A stretch of 32,211 nucleotides of DNA, taken from IMG/VR virus record IMGVR_UViG_3300032050_000513, positions 1 to 32,211 of that record, one strand, 5' to 3'. The notes under the pieces are model-generated. The model did not search any database, was not told the DNA's origin, and saw only the letters and a list, made by a program, of their open reading frames with translations. The position numbers were made by a program, and so were the translations under genes. This document shows positions 7,005-10,798 of the stretch, piece by piece (the first letter of the stretch is position 1; each line of letters begins with the position of its first letter). Source of the DNA: a virus.

Positions 7005-7177
7005 GATGGGTGGATGCCAGCTTCCGCCTGCCTGTAACGCAGAACATGCCCGTGGAGGTCGAGCTGGCCGGTGGCGGCACGGAGAAACGGGACACGGTGA
7101 CGGGTGACTGGCGGCAAGTCATCCGCTGGAGAACAATCCTTGACGCCGATCTGAAGTCGAAAAAGAAGAAAGGATGA
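7001..7177 (+). CDS. 58-residue protein coupled to the jelly-roll and HNH genes
   Basis: GTG at 7001 overlaps the preceding stop (GTGA) and its own TGA (7175-7177) overlaps the next ATG (ATGA), so both ends are fixed by coupling. The product begins VRWVDASFRLPVTQNMPVEV, with DTVTGDWRQVIRWR later and a lysine tail. The WxDASxxxP...PVEV start and final WRxVIRWR strand recall small DUF551-like phage proteins, but this is only a resemblance. Function unknown. Confidence 0.6.
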   Translation: MRWVDASFRLPVTQNMPVEVELAGGGTEKRDTVTGDWRQVIRWRTILDADLKSKKKKG

Positions 7178-7752
7178 CACAACAACATAAGCCGGGTGAC
7201 ATCGCGCCTAACGGACAAGTTTTCCTAAAATATGTGAAGGGCGAGGAATGTTGGGGCAGTCACGACGATTTGTTGAAACAGCGAGAAGCATACAGGCAGT
7301 GGTATCGTGAGCACCGCGAAGAGGTAATCAAAAACAACGCACTTCATGGCGGGGCCGTGCATAGTTGGCGGGCGATGAAACAGCGGTGCTCAAATCCCAA
7401 GCAAAGGGGTTATCGTGGCGTTGGTGCAAAAGGCATCAAAGTCTGCAAGCGTTGGGAGGATTCGTTTGAAAACTTTCTGGCTGACATGGGGCCGCGTCCG
7501 ACGCCAAAGCACTGCATCAACCGCATAAACTGGAAAAAGCATTACACGCCGAGCAACTGCTATTGGGCGACTAAAAGAGATGTTATCCAGAGCCGTCCGT
7601 GTTGCGTCTTGTCGGACTCTGAAATGCCGAAAGTCTTCAAGTTGCTGGAAGCTGGCATGACTCAAACGGAACTAGCGAAGATGTATGGCATCACTCAAGG
7701 CGCGGTCAGCCAAGCGATCCGCAGCTTTCGTCGCAGTCTGGCACAAGATTGA
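7174..7752 (+). CDS. HNH-type (homing-like) endonuclease with C-terminal HTH
   Basis: 192 residues. Residues 64-136 carry the phage HNH/AP2-like pattern: SWRAMKQRCSNP, GVGAKGIKVCKRWEDSFENF, DMGPRPTPKH, RINW and HYTPSNCYWAT. Residues 160-188 form a helix-turn-helix (MTQTELAKMYGITQGAVSQA) that would add target recognition. These free-standing nucleases spread by cutting DNA lacking them. It is more A/T-rich than its neighbours, which supports later insertion. A second member of the same family lies at 26501-27160 on the other strand and shares the DMGPRPTPKH...RIN core. Confidence 0.8.
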   Translation: MTQQHKPGDIAPNGQVFLKYVKGEECWGSHDDLLKQREAYRQWYREHREEVIKNNALHGGAVHSWRAMKQRCSNPKQRGYRGVGAKGIKVCKRWEDSFENFLADMGPRPTPKHCINRINWKKHYTPSNCYWATKRDVIQSRPCCVLSDSEMPKVFKLLEAGMTQTELAKMYGITQGAVSQAIRSFRRSLAQD

Positions 7753-8846: not shown

Positions 8847-9058
8847 CCGCGTGCCTCCTTCGCCTGCTTGCGCCAGTACCACTCACCCGACGTGCGTGCG
8901 GCCAGCCGGCGTTTCAGCTCTGCGATTTGCTCCCGCAGGCTATCCCGCTCGACCTCCAGTTCCGCGTATTTAAGCTGAAGCAGCGTTTGCTCTGCCTCGG
9001 CGTTTGCCAGCACTACCTTGTAGCCCCAACGGGCCAGGATCTTGTTTATGGTTTTCAT
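8843..9058 (-). CDS. Small coiled-coil protein
   Basis: 71 residues from ATG 9058, overlapping the upstream stop as ATGA. After MKTINKILARWGYKVV comes a long heptad-rich helix (QTLLQLKYAELEVERDSLRE, QIAELKRRLAART) and a short basic end. It probably forms a dimeric coiled coil; partner unknown. Confidence 0.6.
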   Translation of the reverse strand: MKTINKILARWGYKVVLANAEAEQTLLQLKYAELEVERDSLREQIAELKRRLAARTSGEWYWRKQAKEARG

Positions 9059-9600
9059 TCGCACGAATAAATTTGATCGGCTCGCTTGAGGCCAACGGGC
9101 CACGCCATGCCAGTGGTAAAGCTCTTGTCTTCAAAGATCACTCGATCAGTCGGCTGCACGGTGAAACGACCGTTCATCGTTCGGATGAACATAAACTCTT
9201 TCGCCTGCTCCGGTACTTCCGAGAATCCGTCCCCAACGGGAGCCACGGTGAAAAGATATTCCCCCATCACCTCACGGTCGTAGCACTTGGCCCTGCACCG
9301 CAGCGACCGCAGGAACGTGTACTCGGTGGCACTCCAGTCGTACCCGTAGCAGTCCCATTGCTGCGCGTGCTCTGGCTGCCATCCGTCCTCCGGGTACCGG
9401 TCATGCGCCAGCGCATGGAGCGGCAGCCCTCGGTACACCGCGCCGCTCTCCAGCATCACGTTGCAGCCCCACATCCGCCCTGGGTGTGACACCAACCCAA
9501 ACCACACGGCGGGGACGAAACCGATGGAGGCTTTGTGCGTGAATGATGAGTCAATCCAAACGTATTGATGCTTGGGCAAACTGCCGATCAGTGTATTCAT
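9055..9600 (-). CDS. Conserved phage protein of unknown function, aromatic-rich
   Basis: 181 residues from ATG 9600. Recognisable stretches are QYVWIDSSFTH, GFVPAVWFGLVSHPGRMWGC, VMLESGAVYRGLPLHALAH, QQWDCYGYDW and TFLRSLRCRAKCY. I recall this layout (VWVDxSxTH, GFxPAVWFG, NVMLENGAxYRxLPLHAL, WDCYG) from phage proteins encoded near methyltransferases. It is rich in Trp, Tyr and Cys with a beta-sheet pattern. It starts 4 nt after the stop of the overprinted frame at 9605, so it belongs to the methyltransferase operon. Confidence 0.65.
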   Translation of the reverse strand: MNTLIGSLPKHQYVWIDSSFTHKASIGFVPAVWFGLVSHPGRMWGCNVMLESGAVYRGLPLHALAHDRYPEDGWQPEHAQQWDCYGYDWSATEYTFLRSLRCRAKCYDREVMGEYLFTVAPVGDGFSEVPEQAKEFMFIRTMNGRFTVQPTDRVIFEDKSFTTGMAWPVGLKRADQIYSCE

Positions 9601-9604
9601 GGCT

Positions 9605-10312
9605 TCAAAGTTTCCCATGCGAGCGCAGCCACTGCTGGAACTTGTCCGTTCCCAATGCGCTTAATGCGCTCCACCCCGTGGGCCACGCCATTAAGGCGTC
9701 GTAGAAATCAAGGTGCGGGTAAATCGTCCCAGAGATGGCTTCCCCATTTGCCCAGGTTGAGAATTGGGCGTTGCGTTGCTGGAACTTGCTGCCGCTTGAC
9801 GTGCCTTTGTAGTCCACCATTTGCGGCGTAGGCCAAAATCCAGATTCGTTCTCGCTTGTGAGGTGCTCCGGCGTGGCAAGCTCCCATAACTCCCCACCGA
9901 GCATCGTACCCCAGCGCGGAAAGGTCTCCAAGCACTCGTCCGAGTCCTCGAACAGTGAGCATTGGCGAGTTTTCCACGAAAACGTAGCTGGGTCGTACTT
10001 CGCCAACGATTCGGGCCATATGTTGCCACATTCCGCTGCGCTCTCCGTCGATTCCTGCCCCTTTTCCAGCAATGGAGATGTCTTGGCATGGGAACCCGCC
10101 AGAAACCACGTCAACAACGCCTCGCCATGGCTTGCCGTCAAAGCTCCGCACGTCATCCCAGACGGGAAACGGCTCCAGGATTCCGTCATTCTGTCGGGCC
10201 ACAAGTACGCTTGCGGCGTAGCCGTCCCATTCGACGGCACAAACGGTGCGCCATCCGAGGAGTTTGCCTCCGAGTATGCCTCCACCAGCGCCTGCGAAAA
10301 GAGCCAGCTCAT
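9605..10312 (-). CDS. Overprinted phage protein in the alternate frame of the methyltransferase
   Basis: 235 residues read from ATG 10312, four bases inside the methyltransferase start (ATGAATGAG holds both starts). It shares over 600 nt with that gene in another frame without a stop. The product is not random: MSWLFSQALVEAYSEANSSD, TPQAYL, HGEALLTWFLAGSHAKTS, ESLAKYDPATFSWKTRQCSL, ETFPRWGTMLGGELWELATP, SGFWPTP, and a C-terminus LMAWPTGWSALSALGTDKFQ-QWLRSHG. I recognise this order from a frequent phage family, including copies ending ELMGWPxGWTxLxPLxTDKF. Its last 100 nt extend beyond the methyltransferase stop. Function unknown. Confidence 0.7.
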   Translation of the reverse strand: MSWLFSQALVEAYSEANSSDGAPFVPSNGTATPQAYLWPDRMTESWSRFPSGMTCGALTASHGEALLTWFLAGSHAKTSPLLEKGQESTESAAECGNIWPESLAKYDPATFSWKTRQCSLFEDSDECLETFPRWGTMLGGELWELATPEHLTSENESGFWPTPQMVDYKGTSSGSKFQQRNAQFSTWANGEAISGTIYPHLDFYDALMAWPTGWSALSALGTDKFQQWLRSHGKL

Positions 10313-10316
10313 TCAT
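9708..10316 (-). CDS. DNA cytosine-5 methyltransferase, catalytic part only
   Basis: 202 residues. Motif I is LFAGAGGG (6-13). Motif IV is GFPCQD with catalytic Cys77. Motif VI is VENSP (114-118, ENS in place of ENV). Motif VIII is HKRERIWI (153-160). These define a cytosine-5 methyltransferase that transfers a methyl group from S-adenosylmethionine. The frame stops soon after motif VIII, so the target-recognition domain and motifs IX and X (the C-terminal GNxV helix) are absent; full-length phage relatives run to about 300 residues. It may be inactive, complemented in trans, or kept because the other frame is needed. First gene of the leftward operon; no Shine-Dalgarno sequence. Confidence 0.85.
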   Translation of the reverse strand: MNELALFAGAGGGILGGKLLGWRTVCAVEWDGYAASVLVARQNDGILEPFPVWDDVRSFDGKPWRGVVDVVSGGFPCQDISIAGKGAGIDGERSGMWQHMARIVGEVRPSYVFVENSPMLTVRGLGRVLGDLSALGYDARWGVMGACHAGAPHKRERIWILAYAANGGLQRHVKRQQVPATQRPILNLGKWGSHLWDDLPAP

Positions 10317-10798
10317 TTGTGTCGTTGAAGTTCAAGGTTGGGCCACAACGTAGCCACGGTTACAAGGCCAAATTGTTTTGGCTGGTATTTTTTCCGGTTA
10401 AAACGGGTTTCCGAAATTGGTTTGGCCGTTTTCCCGGAGGCCAAATGGTTTTCGGGGCAGAATTTCCGGGTTAAAAACGAAATCCAAAATTGGAACCCGG
10501 AATTTGCCAGCCGTTACGGGATGCCGGTTGGCGGATCGGCAACGGAATCGGCAACGGTTGCCGGTTGGCGCTGCCGGCACCGGCACCGGCTCGCCGGCCG
10601 GCCGGGTTGGCTCGACCGGCCACCGGCCACCGGTTGCGGCCAGGGTTGCCAGCCACGGCACCGGCCGCACGGCCACGGGTTGCGGCCATGGCCACCGGAC
10701 ACGGCCGGACACGGCGGACACGGACGGACACGGACACGGCACGCCGGCCACCGTGAAGACGTGGCGAAGCGCCGGCCGGGTTGCGGCCGTTTGTGAAC
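10317..10798. other. Gene-free, repeat-rich control or origin candidate region
   Basis: About 480 bp between the methyltransferase start and a leftward terminator. Its left part (10365-10505) is A/T-containing with inverted repeats: TTTGGCC (10421-10427) with GGCCAAA (10439-10445), and CCGGGTT (10466-10472) with AACCCGG (10494-10500). Its right part (10500-10790) is extremely G+C-rich with overlapping CCGG, GGCC and GCCGGC words and GGACACGG iterons. Long ORFs exist on both strands but are low-complexity by-products of base composition. It must carry the promoter of the methyltransferase operon. Inverted repeats beside iterons also fit a replication origin; neither role is proven. Confidence 0.45.
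10697..10739. repeat. Five GGACACGG iterons
   Basis: Exact GGACACGG copies start at 10697, 10707, 10716, 10726 and 10732. The first four are spaced 10, 9 and 10 bp, about one helical turn, placing them on one face of the helix. This is typical of iteron arrays bound by replication initiators or regulators. Confidence 0.7.

Follow-up and report, generated by a model that had tools for sequence, protein, structure and literature searches.

Two overlapping frames of a phage locus look like the two halves of one C5-cytosine DNA methyltransferase

Can a single stretch of phage DNA encode two selected proteins in overlapping frames, and could both belong to one enzyme? The question is raised by a C5-cytosine DNA methyltransferase locus in the IMG/VR virus record IMGVR_UViG_3300032050_000513, analyzed over all of its 32,211 bases (here referred to as the window), which also encode a terminase and a major head protein. 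The locus lies on the minus strand, as do all of its parts described below. Frame A starts with the ATG at 10316 and frame B, the +1 frame of A, with the ATG at 10312 (ATGAATGAGC). A has 202 open codons up to a TGA (9708 to 10316), and B runs uninterrupted for 235 codons, from 10312 to 9605. A first-pass annotation, made from the letters alone, had noted these two long frames with starts four bases apart. It had proposed true dual coding, with A as the remnant of a methyltransferase retained by selection on B, a protein that it described as occurring in many phages. The layout is as described, and both dual coding and the wide occurrence of B stood up; the remnant proposal did not hold for the family.

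The locus probably specifies both subunits of a C5-cytosine DNA methyltransferase, each translated from its own frame of one stretch of DNA; we assign this reading a probability of about 0.82. In this phage and in hundreds of relatives, overlapping frames of the same DNA look like the two halves of the methyltransferase.

Relatives and the openness of the second frame

Frame A matched PF00145 (expect value [E], 3.8e-32), and all of the motifs claimed for it were located in one chain: I (FAGAGG, 10281 to 10298), IV (GGFPCQ, with its PC and the catalytic cysteine, 10083 to 10100), VI (VENS, containing EN, 9966 to 9977), and VIII (KRERIW, 9840 to 9857). A frame-A profile of the relatives matched M.HhaI structures (E, 1e-20). 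Viral contigs scanned with B yielded at least 575 confirmed stretches, making B a large family that is widespread in phages, and a separate scan with A yielded 598. Bacterial genomes contributed 42 loci, mostly from Pseudomonas and Acinetobacter. How far the interleaved arrangement extends across annotated C5 methyltransferases was gauged from a sample. The ATG of B is conserved in 181 of 186 distinct loci; A starts at the homologous site with ATG, GTG, or TTG or uses an upstream in-frame start instead.

Some openness of the +1 frame is expected in a GC-rich gene, and for a few single GC-rich loci only two to four stops are expected, as would suit a B that is open by chance. In the window itself, synonymous shuffling of the A codons gave 4.3 expected stops in B, where none is observed (P = 0.0014). 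Across 71 viral loci picked by frame A alone, the same shuffling predicted 4.77 B stops per gene versus 0.04 found, with no stop at all in 69 loci, whereas the third frame of these loci was not depleted (17.5 stops versus 14.5 expected). Homologues with B broken by random stops, named by the first-pass annotation as the mark of a chance frame, are thus almost never seen. As controls, we took single-chain C5 methyltransferases, with motifs IX and X in one frame, from the bacterial genomes that had contributed loci; their +1 stops were mostly at expectation (15 versus 15.2, 18 versus 19.2, 21 versus 19.4, and 45 versus 42.3). Two controls fell somewhat below it (L282, P = 0.115; L300, P = 0.04), and their longest open B stretches spanned ∼100 codons rather than the whole gene. 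B is therefore open beyond what chance allows given A. Together with the B-specific constraint described below, the shuffling and the controls rule out a chance open frame, for which we see virtually no room.

Selection along the gene

Constraint was measured in 23 gap-free close pairs of relatives, with each change classed by its effect on each frame; these were preferred to a broad-pair count, which mixes transitions and transversions. Across motifs I to VIII, both frames are constrained (A ratios, 0.15 to 0.24; B ratios, 0.42 to 0.61), these ratios being uncorrected counts from partly dependent pairs that share some loci and offer few doubly synonymous sites. Directly past motif VIII, constraint in the relatives passes from both frames to B only. 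There, in a variable region that we propose to be the target-recognition region (9707 to 9838 in the window, starting FWPTPQMVDYKG in frame B), the B ratio is 0.12 (0.10 to 0.15) and the A ratio 1.04 (0.79 to 1.45, neutral), so that only B residues are constrained, and the differences at A codon positions 1, 2, and 3 are 0.28, 0.069, and 0.046. In the region of motifs IX and X, both frames are constrained again (A, 0.22; B, 0.13). Conservation of B relative to permuted codons is weak evidence by itself, since the third frame rises too through shared ancestry.

Frame A nevertheless stays open where its residues are neutral. When B codons were shuffled, 374 A stops were expected in the variable regions of 171 loci and 1 was found, with 613 versus 556 in the third frame. 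As A is open across the variable region despite its neutral residues, it is most probably translated there as a linker to motif X. The window's own variable region, with one A stop versus 1.2 expected, is uninformative on openness. The switch recurs in the genes of SG4-like mycobacteriophages, with 36, 14, and 0 differences at positions 1, 2, and 3 of codons 165 to 215; near the gene start, where their B frame has stops, the usual third-position pattern (16, 4, and 99) is found.

Purifying selection thus acts on both frames in motifs I to VIII and in the IX/X region, and on B residues only in the variable region, where A is held open. Both frames are selected, and the constrained frame switches at motif VIII. 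True dual coding is strongly supported by the stop depletion in loci selected by A, the single-chain controls, and this frame-specific constraint. The overprinting is unusually clean, in that the constrained frame switches within one gene and both products apparently belong to one enzyme, and the switch makes constraint in each frame directly measurable and testable.

The two products as proposed parts of one enzyme

Along the DNA, motifs I to VIII, the recognition region, IX, and X follow one another as they do in an ordinary single-chain enzyme, and only the frame changes. In the inspected relatives, A is one chain with motifs I to VIII and X, and no motif IX was found in it. The segment at the motif IX position (family pattern, NPxWxEWLMGWPxGWT) is read in frame B, from DNA that immediately precedes motif X; in the window it is FYDALMAWPTGW, at 9671 to 9706. 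In many relatives the IX-like segment and motif X start 47 nucleotides apart, which puts them in different frames.

Frame B matched PHROG 1008, labelled 'DNA methyltransferase' (E, 2.9e-17). Its core (WPxWGxM ... PTPxAxD) aligned with the second 'DNA methylase' open reading frame (ORF) of mycobacteriophages, of the Gladiator gp86 type (hhalign probability, 99.2%; E, 1.2e-19), and the TFPRWGTM at 9902 to 9925 of the window is a core motif common to such second-ORF methylases. The gp86-type ORF carries an IX-like EWMMGW and the motif X sequence IGNGVC in one frame; its IX-like segment was matched by the tail of B (E, 4e-10), and its own tail matched canonical motifs IX to X (E, about 2e-5 to 8e-5; probability, 61 to 78%). 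B is a relative of the second ORF in a split phage methyltransferase. From the homology of the core to gp86-type ORFs and the match of the tail to their IX-like segment, we infer that B is the recognition and motif IX subunit.

In the enzyme that we propose, the frame A product (alpha) would provide S-adenosylmethionine binding and catalysis through motifs I to VIII, with motif X at its C terminus, the two parts being joined by a stretch that must stay open but whose residues are irrelevant. The frame B product (beta) would provide motif IX and the variable part that recognizes the target, that is, the DNA-binding small domain; its N-terminal extension overprints alpha motifs I to VI. Together, the two chains would form a single enzyme that methylates a specific site, probably shielding phage DNA from restriction. 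The first-pass annotation had described a methyltransferase without a recognition domain. This is correct for A itself, which is neutral in the variable region and lacks motif IX in the inspected relatives, but the domain is most probably supplied by frame B.

If dual coding is real, B could still be an independent phage protein, such as an anti-restriction or regulatory factor, that overprints an ordinary methyltransferase. In keeping with this, the N-terminal part of B is absent from SG4-like and Gladiator-like relatives, and B lacks a Pfam match. We consider it unlikely, given that a segment resembling the motif IX missing from A lies at the matching position in B, that the core of B and the second ORF of split mycobacteriophage methylases are homologous, and that only B is constrained exactly where a C5 methyltransferase has its recognition domain. 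Less probable still is a single fused enzyme made by programmed +1 frameshifting near motif VIII. The step from A to B is indeed +1, its product would link motifs I to VIII to the recognition region and IX, naturally frame-swapped fusions exist (L038 and L117), and the A stop in this contig reads CCU UGA, where a +1 slip would enter B. Frameshifting is disfavored by the conserved ATG of B and the constraint on its N-terminal half, and by A being open past the switch with motif X conserved; a common slip site was not seen, though no search aimed at one was made.

Beyond the limits of the substitution counts, several observations weigh against the two-subunit enzyme. B has no match in Pfam or NCBIfam, its predicted structure alone is poor (predicted template modeling score, 0.26), direct comparison of its tail with canonical motif IX gives only a weak match (E, 0.01 to 0.04), and in this contig a TGA breaks the alpha chain, parting motif X from motifs I to VIII. 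In addition, the predicted target-recognition domain of the known two-subunit enzyme M.EcoHK31I was placed in its large subunit, not the small one (PMC3404938). A profile of frame B gave no match to solved structures.

Several known systems resemble the proposed enzyme in part. M.EaeI is similar to M.EcoHK31I (YGGCCR), whose subunit genes overlap in different frames. The precedent for the proposed division is M.EcoHK31I, whose larger subunit holds motifs I to VIII and X and whose second, smaller chain holds motif IX, and M.AquI (CYCGRG) is likewise a C5 methyltransferase of two polypeptides (PMC3404938); the former is likened to our locus by motif layout and the latter by description. Unlike in M.EcoHK31I, beta here begins 4 nucleotides past the alpha start and covers almost the whole of alpha in the other frame, and the pattern of selection assigns the recognition region to beta rather than to the large subunit. 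In the split methylases of mycobacteriophage Gladiator (gp87/gp86) and Streptomyces phage Lilbooboo (gp32/gp33), the catalytic and second halves also occupy two overlapping frames, but the overlap is short and motif X accompanies IX in the second ORF, whereas here beta overlaps all of alpha and X is in alpha. Single-chain C5 methyltransferases (M.HhaI, M.HaeIII, and the Dcm type) share the homologous catalytic half and the motif order, with all motifs in one frame and a +1 frame interrupted at roughly the frequency expected by chance. We found no description of a phage overlap of this kind in the open literature, a weak negative as most subscription papers lay outside the search.

More broadly, and with somewhat better than even confidence, we propose that a lineage of phage and prophage C5 methyltransferases annotated in one frame is interleaved, with catalysis in frame 0, recognition and motif IX in frame +1, and motif X again in frame 0. 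The open, neutral alpha linker would permit exchange of recognition modules without touching the catalytic protein, and the N-terminal part of beta would have arisen de novo over alpha motifs I to VI. If so, many phage 'DNA cytosine methyltransferase' genes would encode only half of the enzyme, its specificity subunit lying in the other frame without annotation or as a hypothetical protein, and cloning or prediction of specificity from the annotated frame would fail.

This contig's copy and its surroundings

The interrupting TGA lies at 9710 to 9708. After it, frame A continues (9597 to 9707) as FLRRLNGVAHGVERIKRIGNGQVPAVAALAWETLKP, which includes motif X (IGNGQVPAVAA, with IGNGQVP at 9636 to 9656), up to a stop at 9599 to 9597. 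Motif X belongs to the same chain as motifs I to VIII in nearly all relatives, and not in this contig. The claim that A stops before motifs IX and X is therefore right about the TGA preceding X, but the frame itself runs on through X, and the segment at the IX position lies in B. The TGA deprives alpha of motif X, and this copy may therefore lack activity or depend on readthrough or re-initiation; A in this phage may be newly damaged, misassembled, or rescued.

A single nonsense codon in A with B intact, the one-frame case that the first-pass annotation had suggested looking for, was otherwise seen in just two of about 200 relatives, L177 and L191. These three interruptions are what a decaying methyltransferase, open only through selection on B, would lead one to expect. 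Across the family, A is intact almost everywhere, selected in motifs I to VIII and X, and free of stops even where only B residues matter, which rules out a remnant for the family and leaves that explanation scarcely credible; damage to A stands for this contig.

Five loci (L038, L117, L167, L172, and L210) have A and B sequences that exchange frames midway, giving single-frame fusions, for example of motifs I to VIII with an IX-like tail. These may reflect mutation, recombination, or assembly error. An alignment for modeling the L038 fusion was misaligned by MAFFT and was left unused.

By eye, the recognition region of the window's B (9707 to 9838) resembles those of L004, L242, and L245, distant phage and plasmid loci of a KGSS ... 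YLNPxF type, which suggests that recognition modules may have been exchanged between them.

Just upstream of both starts, at 10519 to 10743, are GC-rich degenerate repeats comprising a 36-nucleotide family and 46-nucleotide and 10-nucleotide tandem units. The next ORF downstream (9055 to 9618, minus strand) has its ATG at 9618, within the end of B, and matches PHROG 3704, labelled ferredoxin (E, 1.8e-25). Farther along, a plus-strand ORF at 7174 to 7752 is HNH endonuclease-like, with a C-terminal match to repressor-type helix-turn-helix families.
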